DNA of 40,311 nt from Ectothiorhodospiraceae bacterium (GTDB lineage: Bacteria > Pseudomonadota > Gammaproteobacteria > Thiohalomonadales > Thiohalomonadaceae). The notes beneath the pieces were generated by a model, which was not told where the DNA came from, did no database searches, and saw only the letters and a program-made list of their open reading frames with translations. A program made the position numbers and the translations under genes. Shown here piece by piece: positions 6,950 to 16,968 of this stretch. The stretch's first letter is position 1, and each line of letters opens with the position of its first letter. The stretch lies in assembly GCA_007125455.1 (NCBI GenBank), contig SLDE01000018.1, forward strand, positions 1 to 40,311. Reading direction: 5' to 3'.

Positions 6950-8956
6950 CTATTGGAGCATGTTCTTGAGATTGGCCAGGTGGGCCTTGCCACGCTGCTG
7001 ACGCACCTCTTCGGGCACCTCGATCCCCTTGCCCTCCCATTCGATGTCGTCCTGGGGCAGTTCGGCAAGGAAACGGCTGGGTTCGCAGCGCACCAGCTCG
7101 CCGCCCCGGCGGCGGCGGTGGGCGAGGGTGATGGTGAGGGTGCGCTGGGCGCGGGTGATCCCCACGTAGGCGAGGCGGCGCTCTTCTTCGATGTTGTCCT
7201 CCTCGATGGAGACCCGGTGCGGCAGCAACTCCTCCTCGGCACCGACCAGGAAGACGTGGGGGAATTCCAGCCCCTTGGCGGCGTGCAGGGTCATCAGGCG
7301 CACGCTGTCGCCGCCTTCCTCTTCGTTCTGGCGTTCGAGGATGTCGAGCAGGCTGATGCGTGCAACCATCTCGGAGAGGTCTTCGATCTGGTTCTCTGGG
7401 TCGTCGGCCATGCGTTGCAGCCAGCCCAGCAGCTCCTCCACGTTGGCCATCTTGCGTTCGGCCTGTTTGAGATCTTTGCAGTTGTCGTTGAGCCAGAGTT
7501 GGTAGTCGATCTCGCGCACCAGGTCGCGCACCGCCGCCACCGGCTCGCCACGGCGGGCGCGATCGGCGATGTCCACCAGCCAGTGGGCGAACTGGCTGAG
7601 CCGCCCATGGGCCCGTTCGCTGAGGGCCTGCTTGAGGCCCAGCTCAAAGCTGGCAGCAAACAGGCTGATCCCGCGCCCACCGGCGTAGGCACCGAGTTTT
7701 TCGATGGTGCTGGCCCCCAGCTCGCGCCGCGGGGTGTTGACCACCCGCAGGAAGGCGCTGTCGTCATCCGGGTTCACCAGCAGGCGCAGGTAGGCCATGA
7801 TGTCCTTCACCTCGGTGTGCGAAAAGAAGGAGGTGCCGCCGGAGAGGGTGTAGGGGATGCGGTTTTCGCGCAGGGTCTTTTCGAACAGGCGCGACTGGTG
7901 GTTGCCGCGATAGAGGATGGCAAATTCGCCATATTCGGCGCGGTGTTGCAGGCGGTGGTGGATGATCTGCGAGGCCACCTTGAGGGCCTCGTCCTGCTCG
8001 TCGGCGGCGGAGACGATGCGGATCGGATCGCCATAGCCCAGCTCGCTCCACAGCTTCTTTTCGAAGACGTGGGGGTTGTGGTCGATGAGCTGGTTGGCGG
8101 CCTTGAGGATGCGCCCCATGGAGCGGTAGTTCTGCTCCAGCTTGATCACCTTGAGGGTGGGGAAGTCCTGGCTCAGTAGCGCCAGGTTCTCCGGCTGGGC
8201 GCCGCGCCAGGCGTAGATGGACTGGTCGTCATCGCCCACCACGGTGAGCGCACCGCGCACCCCCACCAGCAGGCGCACCAGGCGGTACTGGGTGGCGTTG
8301 GTGTCCTGGTATTCATCCACCAGCAGGTAGCGGATGCGGTTCTGCCAGGCCTCCAGTACCTCGGGGTGCTGCTCGAACAACAGTACCGGCAGCATGATCA
8401 GGTCATCAAAATCGACCGCGTTATAGGCCTTGAGGTGGCGGTTGTAGCTCTCATAGAGGATCGCCGCGCTGTGGGCGAGGGCGTCATCGGCCCCGGCCAA
8501 CGCCTGCTCGGGGGTGATAAAGGCGTTCTTCCAGCTGGAGATGCGCCGCTGCATCTCCTTTTCCAGCGCATCGTCGGTATTCTCCTTGCGCAGCAGCTCG
8601 CGCAGTAGCGCGGCACTGTCCTGGGCATCGAAGATGGTAAAGCCCGGCTTGTAGTCCAGCGCCTTGAGCTCGCGACGCACGATCTCCAGCCCCAGGGTGT
8701 GGAAGGTGGAGACCCGCAGCCCGCGCCCCTCCTTGCCCTCCAGCAGGCCGCTGACGCGCTCCTTCATCTCCCGCGCCGCCTTGTTGGTGAAGGTCACCGC
8801 CGCGATGGTATTGGGCGCCGTGCCGCATTGCTGGATCAGGTGGGCGATCTTCTGGGTGATCACCCGCGTCTTGCCGCTGCCGGCACCGGCCAGCACCAAC
8901 AGGGGACCATCGATATAGCGCACCGCCTCACGTTGGCGGGGATTGAGACCGGACAT
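6950..8956 (-). CDS. rep: ATP-dependent DNA helicase Rep (UvrD/PcrA superfamily 1)
   Basis: MSGLNPRQREAVRYIDGPLLVLAGAGSGKTRVITQKIAHLIQQC...; SF1 motifs DEYQDTN, VGDDDQSIYAWRGA, LMTLHAAKGLEF. The ORF-table extension to 9223 translates a repeat and is not the real N-terminus. Confidence 0.93.
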   Translation of the reverse strand: MSGLNPRQREAVRYIDGPLLVLAGAGSGKTRVITQKIAHLIQQCGTAPNTIAAVTFTNKAAREMKERVSGLLEGKEGRGLRVSTFHTLGLEIVRRELKALDYKPGFTIFDAQDSAALLRELLRKENTDDALEKEMQRRISSWKNAFITPEQALAGADDALAHSAAILYESYNRHLKAYNAVDFDDLIMLPVLLFEQHPEVLEAWQNRIRYLLVDEYQDTNATQYRLVRLLVGVRGALTVVGDDDQSIYAWRGAQPENLALLSQDFPTLKVIKLEQNYRSMGRILKAANQLIDHNPHVFEKKLWSELGYGDPIRIVSAADEQDEALKVASQIIHHRLQHRAEYGEFAILYRGNHQSRLFEKTLRENRIPYTLSGGTSFFSHTEVKDIMAYLRLLVNPDDDSAFLRVVNTPRRELGASTIEKLGAYAGGRGISLFAASFELGLKQALSERAHGRLSQFAHWLVDIADRARRGEPVAAVRDLVREIDYQLWLNDNCKDLKQAERKMANVEELLGWLQRMADDPENQIEDLSEMVARISLLDILERQNEEEGGDSVRLMTLHAAKGLEFPHVFLVGAEEELLPHRVSIEEDNIEEERRLAYVGITRAQRTLTITLAHRRRRGGELVRCEPSRFLAELPQDDIEWEGKGIEVPEEVRQQRGKAHLANLKNMLQ

Positions 8957-9004
8957 GGAACTCACAGGGGACGGCAAACGGGGGCACAGTATACCTGCTA
9001 AAAA

Positions 9005-9138
9005 CCTTTTCCACACAGAGCTCACGGAGAGCACAGAGGAATGGTGGCTGTGCTTCATCCCATAAACACACACCTCACCTTGACCACTGCAAAGTCCTAT
9101 AAAACCCTGTGGTCTCTGTGACCTCTGTGTTGAAGAGG
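9005..9138. repeat. Paired inverted-repeat element (9-bp CACAGAGNN arms), copy 1
   Basis: Left arm 9005-9038 matches the reverse complement of right arm 9105-9138 at 28 of 34 positions. Confidence 0.75.
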
Positions 9139-9141
9139 TCT

Positions 9142-9170
9142 TTGAGACTACGTTAGGGTTTTCTGATAAA
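9142..9170 (+). promoter_or_regulatory. Candidate sigma70 promoter of the mqo-like gene
   Basis: TTGAGA - 17 nt - GATAAA, immediately next to the repeat element and 41 nt before ATG 9211. Confidence 0.45.
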
Positions 9171-9210
9171 CTTGCCTCACTGTCTCCACCCCTTCCCAGG
9201 AATGCCCTTG

Positions 9211-10533
9211 ATGAACAGTTCACACGTCGATGTCGCCATCGTTGGCGGCGGGATCTCCGGTGCCGCCCTGCTCTACCTGCTCTCGCGCTATACCGATCTG
9301 GGGCGTGTCGCCCTCTTGGAGAAGTACCCGGCCATCGGCGAGGTGAATACCCACGGGCGCAATAACAGCCAGACCCTGCACTGCGGCGACATTGAGACCA
9401 ACTACACCCTGGAGAAGGCGGTGCAGGTCAAAAAGACCGCGCAGATGCTGGTGCGCTATGCCCAGGCCCAGGAGAATCGCGACCAGCTGCTGTTCCGCTA
9501 TCCCAAGATGGTGCTGGGGGTGGGTGAGCGCGAGTGCGCCGAGCTGCGTGAACGCTTTGACACCTTCTCCCCCCACTTCCCGGCGATGCGGCTGATGGAG
9601 AGCAAGGACATCGCCGCGGTGGAACCGGCCCTCACCGAGGGGCGCGAGGAGGCCATCGTTGCCCTCGGCAGCCAGGACGAGATCAGCACCGCCAACTTCA
9701 GCGCGCTGGCCAAATCCTTTGTCGAGCAGGCCCAGGCCGGTGGCGGGGAGCGGGTGGATCTGCGGCTCAACACCCAGCTTAAATCCATTGAGGCCGAGGG
9801 CGAGGGCTATCGACTCACCACCAACCAGGGCGAGATCACCGCCAGGTTCGTGGTGGTGAGCGCCGGGGGGCACAGCCTGCTCTACGCCCAGCGCATGGGC
9901 TATGGCCGCCAGTTCTCCTGTCTGCCCATCGCCGGGAGCTTCTACTACACCCCGCAAGTGCTCAACGGCAAGGTCTACACGGTGCAAAATCCGCTGCTGC
10001 CCTTCGCCGCGATCCACGGCGACCCGGACATCCTCGAAGCCGGCAAGACCCGCTTCGGCCCCACCGCGCTGGTACTCCCCCTGCTAGAGCGCCACAAGCT
10101 CTCCAGCTTCCCCGAATACCTGCAGGTATTGCGCCCAGACATGCAAGTGGCCAAGGTGATGTTCGATCTGTTCAAGCAAAAGGCGATCCGCAACTACATG
10201 ATGAAGAACACCCTGTTCGAGATCCCCGTGGTACGCCGCCGCCTGTTCCTCAAGGATGCACAGAAGATCGTGCCGAATCTGCGCCTGGAAGATCTCAGTT
10301 TCGCCGGGGGGATCGGTGGTATTCGCCCGGTGCTGATCGACAAGGAAAACCGCAAGCTGCACCTGGGCGAGGCACGCATCGCCCCCGGTAACGGGCTGAT
10401 CTTCAACATGACCCCCTCACCCGGTGCCACCTCCTGCCTGGGCAATGCCGAGAACGACCTGCGCCTGATCGTCGAACACCTCCATTGCCGCTTCGACGAA
10501 GCCGCCCTACAAACCGAGCTGCACGGCGAGTAA
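9211..10533 (+). CDS. mqo: FAD-dependent malate:quinone oxidoreductase, epsilon/Helicobacter-type
   Basis: VDVAIVGGGISGAALLYLLSRYTDLGRVALLEKY...NNSQTLHCGDIETNYTLEKA...PKMVLGVGERECAELRERFDTF; resembles the Helicobacter-type MQO pattern ([36 protein letters not shown]) as I remember it. Confidence 0.75.
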   Translation: MNSSHVDVAIVGGGISGAALLYLLSRYTDLGRVALLEKYPAIGEVNTHGRNNSQTLHCGDIETNYTLEKAVQVKKTAQMLVRYAQAQENRDQLLFRYPKMVLGVGERECAELRERFDTFSPHFPAMRLMESKDIAAVEPALTEGREEAIVALGSQDEISTANFSALAKSFVEQAQAGGGERVDLRLNTQLKSIEAEGEGYRLTTNQGEITARFVVVSAGGHSLLYAQRMGYGRQFSCLPIAGSFYYTPQVLNGKVYTVQNPLLPFAAIHGDPDILEAGKTRFGPTALVLPLLERHKLSSFPEYLQVLRPDMQVAKVMFDLFKQKAIRNYMMKNTLFEIPVVRRRLFLKDAQKIVPNLRLEDLSFAGGIGGIRPVLIDKENRKLHLGEARIAPGNGLIFNMTPSPGATSCLGNAENDLRLIVEHLHCRFDEAALQTELHGE

Positions 10534-10700: not shown

Positions 10701-10737
10701 ATAGCCTTTAGCTATCGCTCTCTTAGTTACAATCAAT
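10701..10737 (+). promoter_or_regulatory. Putative OxyR operator upstream of rubrerythrin
   Basis: ATAGcctttagCTAT-N7-TTAGttacaatCAAT against ATAGntnnnanCTAT-N7-ATAGntnnnanCTAT: 9/10 plus 8/10 defined positions, exact N7 spacing. Followed by TTCACA-17-TACGTT as a possible -35/-10. Confidence 0.6.
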
Positions 10738-10829
10738 TTCACATAAACCCCTTCCTCGACTACGTTTATAGAGCGTTGTCACACAGCGCCCTGATTTTTC
10801 TCGCAACATACGTTACCGAGGTGAAAGAT

Positions 10830-11246
10830 ATGGAACTGAAAGGAAGTAAGACTGAGCAGCATCTTAAGGACGCCTTCTCTGGCGAGTCCCAGGCCAACCG
10901 TCGCTACCTGTACTTCGCGAACAAGGCCGATGTGGAAGGTTACGCCGATGTGGCCAGCCTGTTCCGCTCCACCGCCGAGGGTGAAACCGGCCATGCTCAC
11001 GGCCACCTGGAATACCTGGAGCAGTGCGGCGACCCCGCCACCGGCATGCCCTTTGGCAGCACCAATGACAACCTGAAGGCCGCCGTAGCGGGTGAAACCC
11101 ACGAGTACACCGACATGTATCCGGGTATGGCCAAGACCGCGCGTGACGAAGGCTTCGACGAGATCGCCGACTGGTTTGAAACCCTGGCCAAGGCTGAGCG
11201 TTCCCACGCCAACCGCTACCAGAAGGCCCTGGACGAACTGTCCTGA
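10830..11246 (+). CDS. Rubrerythrin-family diiron protein (no C-terminal rubredoxin domain)
   Basis: [38 protein letters not shown]...; ends ...KALDELS without CxxCG rubredoxin motifs. Confidence 0.9.
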
Positions 11247-12672: not shown

Positions 12673-12810
12673 TTCAACACAGGGGCCACAGAGAACACGG
12701 AGTAACTAGACAATGGGCGGTTCATTTCTTCACCGATCCCCATCTACCCCGCAAGCAAAGATCCAACTTGCCGATATTTTCTCTGTGGTCTCTGTGCTCT
12801 GTGTGTTGAA
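12673..12810. repeat. Paired inverted-repeat element (9-bp CACAGAGNN arms), copy 2
   Basis: Left arm 12673-12702 matches the reverse complement of right arm 12781-12810 at 24 of 30 positions. Confidence 0.75.
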
Positions 12811-12833: not shown

Positions 12834-13415
12834 ATGAGTAAATTGACCGCTGCAGATTTAATGTCACTGGAACAATACGCCCGCGAACGCCAAACGTTTC
12901 GTGCGCGTGTGATGGCGCATAAAAAGTCCCGCCAGTTGGCGCTGGGGGAGCACGCCACCTTGTATTTTGAAGATGCCCTGACCATGCAGTATCAGGTGCA
13001 GGAGATGCTGCGCATCGAGCGGATCTTTGAGGCTGAGGGGATTCAGGAGGAACTGGATGTCTACAACCCGCTGATCCCCGATGGCAGCAACTGGAAGGCC
13101 ACCTTTATGGTGGAGTACGACGACGAGCAAGAGCGCAAACAGATGCTGGCCAAGCTGATCGGTGTCGACAAGGCCGTCTGGATGCAGGTGGAGGGCTTCG
13201 ACAAGGTGCGCCCGATCTGCAACGAGGATCTGGAGCGCGAGACCGAGGACAAGACCTCCTCGGTGCACTTTATGCGCTTTGAACTCAGCCCCGAGATGGT
13301 CGCCGCCGCCAAGGCGGGTAAGCCCCTGCATGCCGGGATAGACCATACCGAGTACCGGGTGGAGTGCACCATCCCCGAAGCGATCCGGCAATCCCTGATC
13401 AATGACCTTGCCTGA
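12834..13415 (+). CDS. DUF3501 family protein
   Basis: MSKLTAADLMSLEQYARERQTFRARVMAHKKSRQLALGEHATLYFEDALTMQYQVQEMLRIERIFE..., DUF3501 pattern. Confidence 0.85.
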   Translation: MSKLTAADLMSLEQYARERQTFRARVMAHKKSRQLALGEHATLYFEDALTMQYQVQEMLRIERIFEAEGIQEELDVYNPLIPDGSNWKATFMVEYDDEQERKQMLAKLIGVDKAVWMQVEGFDKVRPICNEDLERETEDKTSSVHFMRFELSPEMVAAAKAGKPLHAGIDHTEYRVECTIPEAIRQSLINDLA

Positions 13416-13469: not shown

Positions 13470-13760
13470 ATGTCGAATGAAGGTTATCACGAGCCGGTGT
13501 CTGAACTGAGCGACAAGACCCGTGACATGCATCGCGCCATCGTCTCACTGATGGAGGAGCTGGAAGCCGTAGACTGGTACAACCAGCGCGTCGATGCCTG
13601 TAAGGATGAGGAGCTGCGCCAGATCCTGATCCACAACCGTGATGAAGAAAAGGAACACGCCGCGATGGTGCTGGAGTGGATCCGCCGTCAGGACGAGAGC
13701 TTCGACCACGAGTTGAAGGACTACCTGTTCAAAGAAGGCCCCATCGGCCACCACGACTGA
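13470..13760 (+). CDS. EncFtn-like (encapsulated-ferritin family) protein, 96 aa, no encapsulation tail
   Basis: HEPVSELSDKTRDMHRAIVSLMEELEAVDWYNQRVDACKDEELRQILIHNRDEEKEHAAMVLEWIRRQDESFDHELKDYLFKEGPIGHHD; near-identical in the core to the Rhodospirillum rubrum EncFtn pattern (MEELEAVDWYDQRVDA...HNRDEEKEHAAMTLEWLRR). Metal ligands map to E30, E60, H63. Confidence 0.88.
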   Translation: MSNEGYHEPVSELSDKTRDMHRAIVSLMEELEAVDWYNQRVDACKDEELRQILIHNRDEEKEHAAMVLEWIRRQDESFDHELKDYLFKEGPIGHHD

Positions 13761-13794: not shown

Positions 13795-13818
13795 ACTTAC
13801 GGAAAAGACCCCACCACC

Positions 13819-14742
13819 ATGACCCTGACAGAACTCCGATACATCGTCGCCGTGGCCGACAAGCGCCACTTCGGCCAGGCCGCCGAGGCCTGCCATGTAA
13901 GCCAGCCCACCCTGAGTGTGGCCGTCAAGCGGCTGGAGGAGGATTTGGGGGTCATCCTGTTCGAGCGATCGCGCAGTGAGATCAGCTTAACCCCTGTGGG
14001 GGAGCGCGTGGTCGACCAGGCAAAAAAGGCCCTGGCAGAATCCGCAGCGGTGCGCGAGGTGGCCTGCGCCAGCCGCGATCAACTCAACGACCCGCTACGC
14101 CTGGGGGCGATCTACACCATCGGCCCCTACCTGCTACCACAGCTGATCCCCAGGGTGCACGAACGGGCCCCAAAGATGCAGCTGCTGATCAGCGAAAACT
14201 ACACCCATGAACTGCGTCCCCGGCTAAGGAACAACGAGCTGGACGCGATCCTCGTCGCACTGCCCTTCGACGAGCCCGGCATCGAGACCCTGCCGCTCTA
14301 CCATGAGCCCTTTAATATACTGCTACCCACCAGCCACCCCCTGAGCCAGCGAGAGGTGATCGCCCCCGGCGATCTGGAGCAAGAGACCGTGCTATTGCTT
14401 GGCCCCGGCCATTGCTTCCGCGATCAGGTGCTGGAGGCCTGTCCAGGCTGTGCACAGGAGTCTGGTGGTCAGCCCGGCCTGCAGCGCAGCCTGGAAGGGG
14501 CCTCCCTGGAGACCATACGGATGATGGTTTCCAGCGGGGTGGGAACCACGGTGCTGCCTTGCAGCGCCGCCGTTGCATCGCAAAACGACTCGCTGGTTAC
14601 CCTGCGCCCCTTCACCGCCCCGGTGCCAGGACGCGATGTCGCGCTGGCCTGGCGCAAGAGCTTTCCGCGCCCCAAGGCGATCGAGGCCATCGCCGAGGCG
14701 GTGCGTGCGGTAGGGATGAGCTGTGTGATGAAGTTTACCTAG
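13819..14742 (+). CDS. oxyR: Hydrogen peroxide-sensing LysR-type regulator OxyR
   Basis: MTLTELRYIVAVADKRHFGQAAEACHVSQPTLSVAVKRLEEDLGV...; redox-cysteine region GPGHCFRDQVLEAC corresponds to E. coli OxyR GHCLRDQAMGFC. Confidence 0.92.
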   Translation: MTLTELRYIVAVADKRHFGQAAEACHVSQPTLSVAVKRLEEDLGVILFERSRSEISLTPVGERVVDQAKKALAESAAVREVACASRDQLNDPLRLGAIYTIGPYLLPQLIPRVHERAPKMQLLISENYTHELRPRLRNNELDAILVALPFDEPGIETLPLYHEPFNILLPTSHPLSQREVIAPGDLEQETVLLLGPGHCFRDQVLEACPGCAQESGGQPGLQRSLEGASLETIRMMVSSGVGTTVLPCSAAVASQNDSLVTLRPFTAPVPGRDVALAWRKSFPRPKAIEAIAEAVRAVGMSCVMKFT

Positions 14743-14808: not shown

Positions 14809-16968
14809 CTAGACGACATCCAGCCTGGCGTAGGCCAGCACCAACCACTTGCTGCCCACCCCCGGATCGTCGAAGTGGACCTGCACCCTGGCCTGGGCCC
14901 CGCTGCCCTCGCTGTTGAGGATCACCCCCTGACCAAACTTGGGGTGTTGTACCTGTTGGCCCACCTCCAATCCGGCCTCACCCTGCGCAGCACTGTGCTC
15001 ACGACGAAACAGGGGCTGGCTGACACCACCACCCATGCGCACCTCTTGCAACAGCTCGGCGGGGATGTCGCGGATAAAGCGCGAGGGGCGGGTGTATTTC
15101 TCTTCACCGTAGAGGCGGCGTACCTCGGCGTGGGTGATGTAGAGCTGCTCCATGGCGCGGGTGATCCCCACATAGGCAAGACGCCGCTCCTCTTCCAGAC
15201 GATTGGGGTCGGCGATGGAGAGTTTGTGCGGAAACAGCTCTTCTTCCATCCCGGCAATAAACACCAGCGGGAACTCCAGTCCCTTGGCGCTGTGCAGGGT
15301 CATCATCTGTACCGCCTCTTCGTTCTCGGCGGCCTGGGTGTCGCCCGCCTCCAGTGCGGCATGGGCGAGGAAGGCGTCGAGGTCGTCCATGCCCTCTTCG
15401 TCGTCGAACTCGAACTGGCGGGCGGCGGATACCAGTTCCTCCAGGTTTTCGATGCGCGCCTGGCCCTTCTCGCCCTTCTCCTTTTTGAAGTGTTCCAGCA
15501 GACCGCTGTGGGCAACCACATGTTCTACCCGTTCATCCAACAGCCCGTCGCGGCTGTCCTGATCCATGTTATCGATCAATTCCAGGAAGTATTTCACTGC
15601 ATTGGCGGCGCGCGCAGGCAGCCCCTGGCCGTTTACCAGATCGCTGGCGGCCTGCCACATGGAGATCTCGGTGGCGCGGGCCTGGCTGCGTATCGCCTCG
15701 ATGGTGCGTAAGCCGATCCCGCGCGTGGGGGTGTTGACCACCCGCTCAAAGGAGGGCTCGTCGTGGCGGTTGGCCAGCAGGCGCAGGTAGGCGAGTGCGT
15801 CCTTGATCTCGGCACGCTCGAAGAAGCGCAGGCCCCCATAGATGCGGTAGGGCAGGCGTGCCTGCATCAGCGCCTCTTCCAAGACCCGCGACTGGGCATT
15901 GGAGCGATAGAGGATCGCCACCTCATCGCGGCGCCGACCGGGTTGGCACCACTGCTGGATGCGATCGGCGATAAAGCGCGCCTCGTCCAACTCGTTAAAG
16001 GCGGTGTAGAGGCTGATCGGCTCGCCCGGCTCGCCTTCGGTCCAGAGGTTTTTGCCCAGGCGATCGGTGTTGTAGGCGATCAGGGCGTTGGCGGCATTGA
16101 GGATGGTGGCGGTGGAGCGGTAGTTCTGCTCCAGGCGGATCAGCTCTACCCCGGGCAGGTCGCTCTGAAAACGGTGCAGATTCTCCACCCGCGCGCCGCG
16201 CCAGCCATAGATGGATTGGTCATCGTCCCCCACCGCGAAGACCTGGCCGTCTTTCCCCGCCAACAGACGGATCCAGGCGTACTGGATGGCGTTGGTATCC
16301 TGAAACTCATCCACCAGGATGTGGCGAAAACGCTTGCGGTAATGTTCAAGGATTTCGGGGTTTTTCAGCCACAGCTCGTGGGCACGCAGCAGCAGCTCGG
16401 CAAAGTCGACCACGCCGTTGCGCTGGCAGGCAGACTCGTAGGCGCGGTAAAGCTCAATGAGCTTCTTTTCCTGGTAGTCGTGGCCCTCTTCCAGGTGCTG
16501 CGGGCGCAGCCCTTCGTCCTTTTTGCCATTGATAAACCACTGTGCCTGGCGTGGCGGCAGTTTTTCGTCGTCGATACCCAACTCACGGATCAATCGTTTG
16601 AGCATGCGGTATTGATCGTCGCTGTCGAGGATGGCGAAGCCCTGGGGGAGGTCCGCTTCGCGCCAGTGGGTGCGCAGCAGGCGGTGGGCGATACCGTGGA
16701 AGGTACCGACCCACATCCCCTGGGCTGGGGTCTCCAGCAGGGCCTCGATACGACCGCGCATCTCGCGCGCCGCCTTGTTGGTAAAGGTGACCGCCAGGAT
16801 CCCGTAGGGGGAGGCCTGGCCGGTGCGCACCAGAAAGGCGATGCGGTGGGTGAGCACGCGGGTCTTGCCGCTGCCAGCCCCGGCGAGGATCAGGTGGTTG
16901 CCCGGCGCGGCACAGACCGCCTCGCGCTGGGCATCGTTGAGGTCGTCGATGAGATCGGTAATATCCAT
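14809..16968 (-). CDS. uvrD: DNA helicase II UvrD
   Basis: MDITDLIDDLNDAQREAVCAAPGNHLILAGAGSGKTRVLTHRIAFL...; SF1A motifs and a UvrD-type C-terminal tail (VGQQVQHPKFGQGVILNSEGSG). Confidence 0.93.
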   Translation of the reverse strand: MDITDLIDDLNDAQREAVCAAPGNHLILAGAGSGKTRVLTHRIAFLVRTGQASPYGILAVTFTNKAAREMRGRIEALLETPAQGMWVGTFHGIAHRLLRTHWREADLPQGFAILDSDDQYRMLKRLIRELGIDDEKLPPRQAQWFINGKKDEGLRPQHLEEGHDYQEKKLIELYRAYESACQRNGVVDFAELLLRAHELWLKNPEILEHYRKRFRHILVDEFQDTNAIQYAWIRLLAGKDGQVFAVGDDDQSIYGWRGARVENLHRFQSDLPGVELIRLEQNYRSTATILNAANALIAYNTDRLGKNLWTEGEPGEPISLYTAFNELDEARFIADRIQQWCQPGRRRDEVAILYRSNAQSRVLEEALMQARLPYRIYGGLRFFERAEIKDALAYLRLLANRHDEPSFERVVNTPTRGIGLRTIEAIRSQARATEISMWQAASDLVNGQGLPARAANAVKYFLELIDNMDQDSRDGLLDERVEHVVAHSGLLEHFKKEKGEKGQARIENLEELVSAARQFEFDDEEGMDDLDAFLAHAALEAGDTQAAENEEAVQMMTLHSAKGLEFPLVFIAGMEEELFPHKLSIADPNRLEEERRLAYVGITRAMEQLYITHAEVRRLYGEEKYTRPSRFIRDIPAELLQEVRMGGGVSQPLFRREHSAAQGEAGLEVGQQVQHPKFGQGVILNSEGSGAQARVQVHFDDPGVGSKWLVLAYARLDVV

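Follow-up and report, generated by a model that had tools for sequence, protein, structure and literature searches.

A candidate OxyR operator upstream of an aerobic-type rubrerythrin operon and its apparent exchange for another operator among relatives

Within the window, the whole 40,311-nucleotide stretch analyzed here, the segment 10701–10737 is best explained as an operator for OxyR activation of an aerobic-type rubrerythrin (rbr) operon, a reading to which we assign a probability of about 0.88. Already proposed in the earlier note, this reading gained support from the uniqueness and conservation of the site, its dependence on a spacer of 7 bases, the constant distance to a −10-like element and the recurrent linkage to oxyR. 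The elements of the promoter and the cluster are:

10701–10737, + strand: OxyR box; tetranucleotides ATAG/CTAT/TTAG/CAAT, 7-7-7 spacing, 17/20 to the consensus
10738–10743, + strand: weak −35 region TTCACA, directly adjoining the box (from the sequence and a box-anchored alignment)
10761–10766, + strand: −10 element TACGTT, 17-nt spacer after TTCACA (box-anchored alignment)
10830–11243, + strand: rbr, aerobic-type rubrerythrin, 138 aa, without rubredoxin domain (family described in PMC5114695)
11326–12663, + strand: RFO, GlpC-like Fe-S protein (member of the PMC5114695 cluster)
12834–13412, + strand: DUF3501 protein
13470–13757, + strand: EncFtn-like ferritin-like protein, 96 aa (TIGR04535 above its cut-off)
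13819–14739, + strand: oxyR (OxyR1), redox-cysteine motif GHCFRDQVLEAC

In the proposed mechanism, peroxide-oxidised OxyR would activate a σ70-type promoter with a poor −35 region, its tetramer making contact with all four tetranucleotides just ahead of the −35 hexamer and recruiting RNA polymerase. The rbr, RFO, DUF3501 and EncFtn-like genes would be induced, as would the distal oxyR1 if it is read through. Using electrons that arrive via RFO, rubrerythrin would reduce peroxide, while the ferritin-like protein would oxidise free iron. That OxyR binds, which OxyR does so, that H2O2 induces the genes and that they are transcribed together are inferences, as is the enzymology.

The OxyR box, its promoter and the gene cluster

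The box was compared with the OxyR consensus ATAGntnnnanCTAT-N7-ATAGntnnnanCTAT, comprising 20 defined bases (ATAG-N7-CTAT-N7-ATAG-N7-CTAT type). Its forward-strand sequence, ATAGCCTTTAGCTAT-CGCTCTC-TTAGTTACAATCAAT, differs from this consensus by exactly three mismatches at exact spacing, confirming the 17/20 match and the 7-nt spacer given in the earlier note. Fourteen of the 16 tetranucleotide bases match, and the 3′ half (TTAG, CAAT) is the weaker one. All genome-wide searches were pattern scans allowing mismatches, run on a draft genome of 2.6 Mb in 265 contigs with a completeness of 95.5%. The genome-wide scan that had been suggested for this site returned the box as the single best match and as the sole match at three or fewer mismatches, the reversed control pattern giving none in the same draft genome. 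Within the window the runner-up site scored 12/20, and a match at three or fewer mismatches arose in none of 100 dinucleotide-shuffled versions of the window. Class-wide, consensus matches were also seen away from rubrerythrin, several of them in AT-rich sequence, with five control matches in the same set.

Directly behind the box the hexamer TTCACA was found at 10738, as previously read, and the relatives show the consensus TTTCA at this place in the box-anchored alignment. Likewise, a TAnnnT motif is kept at fixed distance across the relatives, at box positions 61–66; the columns of neither element had been used for selection. The site adjoins the −35 region of a predicted antioxidant-gene promoter, TTCACA-N17-TACGTT in the window, and as far as sequence can tell, the layout of box and −10 element is the geometry of an activator abutting a poor −35. 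A generic promoter scan of the window returned no σ70 site, as expected with a poor −35 region, though this is no proof of such a promoter. A 7-bp hairpin followed by T-rich sequence (10773–10789) lies exactly at the presumed transcription start; for this position an ordinary terminator was rejected, and the element could be a 5′ stabilising hairpin.

The encoded rubrerythrin has no rubredoxin domain and is linked to RFO and DUF3501, the features of the aerobic type. The last gene of the cluster starts 3.08 kb from the box on the same strand, in line with the oxyR anticipated about 3 kb downstream. The closest relatives of its product are OxyR proteins and cysteines of the C199/C208 type are present; its best NCBIfam model is PRK11151 OxyR (234.6 bits, below the curated cut-off of 329) and its best PDB match is the OxyR structure 4x6g (E 3.6e-104). 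Despite the presence of the EncFtn-like gene, an encapsulin shell gene (PF04454) was not found in the draft genome; the short 96-aa protein resembles the s-FLP class without targeting peptide (PMC11202242). The 170-nt gap between RFO and DUF3501 is filled by an imperfect 36-bp inverted repeat (12673–12810; fold z −3.9), and a related CTCTGTG-rich repeat occurs at four other places in the genome. The cluster region is flanked by two long reverse-strand open reading frames, 6950–9223 and 14809–16968, read as putative Rep/UvrD-type helicases on the basis of an AGAGSGKTR Walker motif.

Conservation of the box and its linkage to oxyR

The conservation set comprised 108 upstream regions of orthologous rubrerythrins, the window being excluded. 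Agreement with the OxyR consensus reached at least 14/20 in 41 of these regions and at least 15/20 in 23, compared with means of 2.0 and 0.30 (maximum 8 and 3, respectively) for 1000 column-permuted patterns, indicating that the site is conserved in orthologous promoters. The 41 matches were obtained with a spacer of 7, other spacers giving 4–15, and the half-site ATAG-N7-CTAT occurred in 30 regions as compared to 0–2 for other gaps. For roughly one in three to four rbr orthologues, neither the OxyR box nor the rival palindrome described below was clear.

The linkage to oxyR recurs in several arrangements. Genomes G001 and G008 show the same five-gene order as the window with oxyR 3′ of the operon, a position also found at L109. 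The gene lies directly 5′ of rbr at L077, L081, L086, L087, L088, L091, L096, L101, L110, L111, L116 and L136 as well as in G011, G016 and G034, and is divergent from rbr in G005. These rbr-linked OxyR proteins are of two types, one close to OxyR1, with which it shares 51–83% identity, and the other closer to E. coli OxyR and a second OxyR of the window's genome (OxyR2), which suggests from sequence relationships that the association probably arose more than once. Some linked OxyRs deviate from the strict cysteine motif (GNCFRDQ, GHCMRGQ, EHCLHHE), with both cysteines kept.

A second rubrerythrin of about 36–40% identity directly follows oxyR in genus g9 (G009, G015, G017 and G018; loci L160, L185, L186 and L187) and in G040 (L161). 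Its OxyR box scores 16–17/20 and is located about 120–145 nt before the matched start. The G009 locus L160 carries an additional 17/20 box just upstream of oxyR itself.

Candidate regulators acting at the box

Autoregulation through the operon's own oxyR1 is plausible, since this gene is the fifth of a co-directional cluster; the structured RFO–DUF3501 gap could uncouple it from the rbr promoter. Directly upstream of oxyR1 we found no OxyR box, the best score being 10/20 near 13806. Besides OxyR1 with its motif GHCFRDQVLEAC, the genome encodes the E. coli-type OxyR2 on contig C6 (cysteine motif GHCLREHALDVC), each with a redox-active cysteine pair, and OxyR2 could act at the rbr site too.

A relaxed scan was based on a pattern built from the rubrerythrin family, with no mismatch at rbr and matches taken at two to three mismatches. 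It pointed to putative OxyR sites at C6:3348–3384 (L158/L174), between a peroxiredoxin–glutaredoxin (Prx-Grx) fusion gene and the divergent oxyR2, and at C255:3789–3825 (L176), upstream of a 1-Cys peroxiredoxin gene. A further match, on contig C193, was set aside as chance, having three mismatches and a neighbour that by eye is cytochrome-like, with the control also giving one match. The putative OxyR targets of this genome thus form a small and coherent group.

The alternative that survives best is a sub-case of OxyR activation and does not exclude it, namely that OxyR2 is the activator, with OxyR1 either serving a different function or being carried along as a passenger. We consider this possible, if somewhat doubtful: OxyR2 has the redox cysteines and its own gene has an OxyR-like box next to it, and an OxyR of the E. 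coli/OxyR2 type is linked to rbr in G011 and G016 and at L088, L116 and L136, but the OxyR1 type is linked to rbr in the window, in G001, G008 and G034, at L077, L081, L091, L096 and L110, and at other loci. As the same kind of box is linked to both types, their specificity is probably shared, which counts against this alternative.

Two further readings are unlikely, and about equally so. The site might mainly serve reduced OxyR as a repressor site, keeping rbr off without peroxide, in analogy to the repression of catalase by OxyR in some bacteria, e.g. Corynebacterium diphtheriae (PMC3306370); however, the box stops exactly at the −35 and leaves the −10 uncovered, an activator geometry that is conserved in the relatives. 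Alternatively, another LysR-type regulator might bind, as several other genes of this kind are present in the genome and the generic LysR-type core T-N11-A is contained in ATAG-N7-CTAT. Against this stands the conservation of all four tetranucleotides at 7-7-7 spacing, together with the association of the box with genes encoding OxyR cysteines and of the other matches with peroxiredoxins and oxyR2. A chance resemblance without function, conceivable in that single sites can be fortuitous, is highly improbable for a site unique in 2.6 Mb, equalled in none of the shuffles and kept upstream of rbr in G001, G008, G013 and other genomes.

A rival palindrome in relatives and comparison with known systems

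The OxyR box is not shared by all rbr orthologues. In 36 of them, about a third, a 15-base palindrome, TTAGACTnAGTCTAA (at least 12/14), lies near the promoter in place of the OxyR box, and none of the 36 loci with this palindrome alone has an oxyR neighbour. Coexistence is rare, with both boxes found by score in three orthologues. Two of these, G011 (L057/L163) and G016 (L058/L164), carry the palindrome-like sequences TTAGACTCACTCTAT/TTAGACTCATTCTAT after the OxyR box in the same promoter and possibly represent an intermediate in a regulator swap. The third case, G029, has its OxyR-like score at −345, which may be due to chance. Furthermore, in genus g9 and G040 the palindrome is located at the aerobic-type rubrerythrin and the OxyR box at the second rubrerythrin beside oxyR.

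Of 18 genomes whose rbr carries the palindrome, 17 have a short-class Fur-family gene, as compared to 2 of 12 genomes without the palindrome there, and from this co-occurrence we infer that TTAGACTnAGTCTAA would be bound by an Irr-like protein. The three short Fur-family proteins tested best fit the IrrA/Irr models, all below their cut-offs; the interpretation of the palindrome as a PerR box was dropped in view of this fit of the candidate regulator (IrrA 133 bits, cut-off 150), and because the score falls short of the cut-off the protein is termed Irr-like only. Irr-like Fur-family proteins with an HHH/HxH motif were observed in γ-proteobacteria (L150–L157, L165, L167–L169), where they occur together with the TTAGACTnAGTCTAA box at rubrerythrin. 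The window's genome contained no TTAGACTnAGTCTAA-like palindrome at two or fewer mismatches, hence no PerR/Irr-type 7-1-7 operator of this kind, and a search of its draft assembly for an Irr-like gene was likewise negative.

We placed OX/IR labels on a tree of rubrerythrin and RFO covering 97 loci. The labels require at least 9 changes versus a mean of 23 in shuffles, indicating, as far as the sequence-derived tree goes, that the box types are clustered and yet were exchanged several times. Fisher tests on the exclusivity of the boxes ignore relatedness, and with labels clustered in this way their p-values overstate independence. Overall, we lean slightly towards a repeated exchange, in β- and γ-proteobacteria, of the control of this conserved peroxide-defence operon between two modes that differ chemically, activation by the thiol peroxide sensor OxyR and the TTAGACTnAGTCTAA operator, the latter probably bound by an Irr-like protein.

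Scored on the same scale, the best sites in upstream regions of E. coli K-12 reached 16 of 20 for oxyS-oxyR and dsbG-ahpC, 14 for dps and katG and 13 for ahpC; these classic OxyR targets range from 13 to 16 and stay below the 17 of the window box. The Pseudomonas aeruginosa OxyR sites in PMC5720770 match 13/16 (ahpB) and 12/16 (ahpC) tetranucleotide bases as compared to 14/16 in the window, and CAAT/ATTG variants are found at P. aeruginosa sites too (PMC5720770). The window box thus resembles the E. coli and P. aeruginosa operators in its four tetranucleotides, its 7-7-7 spacing and its position upstream of a peroxide-defence gene, but differs in its target, an operon for an aerobic-type rubrerythrin in which oxyR is the distal gene. 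Our literature search found no description of OxyR control of such an operon. The RBR-RFO-DUF3501 cluster of PMC5114695 comprises the same three families, with a rubrerythrin lacking the rubredoxin domain, whereas the window operon adds the EncFtn-like gene and oxyR; OxyR and PerR are unmentioned in the main text of that paper. Regulated rubrerythrins are known from the PerR-rbr system of δ-proteobacteria (PMC545781), and Irr controls the rubrerythrin-like gene mbfA in α-proteobacteria (PMC3413700). Both share with the predicted circuit of the window the peroxide- or iron-responsive control of rubrerythrin-type genes, in contrast to which the window promoter is devoid of such a palindrome.

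The type of switch, an OxyR operator, is known, and it is the exchange of regulators around it that may appeal to specialists. The regulated rubrerythrins that we found in the literature are under PerR or Irr, while the window presents a predicted OxyR–rubrerythrin circuit whose operator is well defined and recurs far outside this genome. Orthologous promoters with the OxyR box, the Irr-like one or the two together constitute a natural experiment in transcription-factor replacement, which allows the evolution of such a swap to be examined from one promoter to the next.
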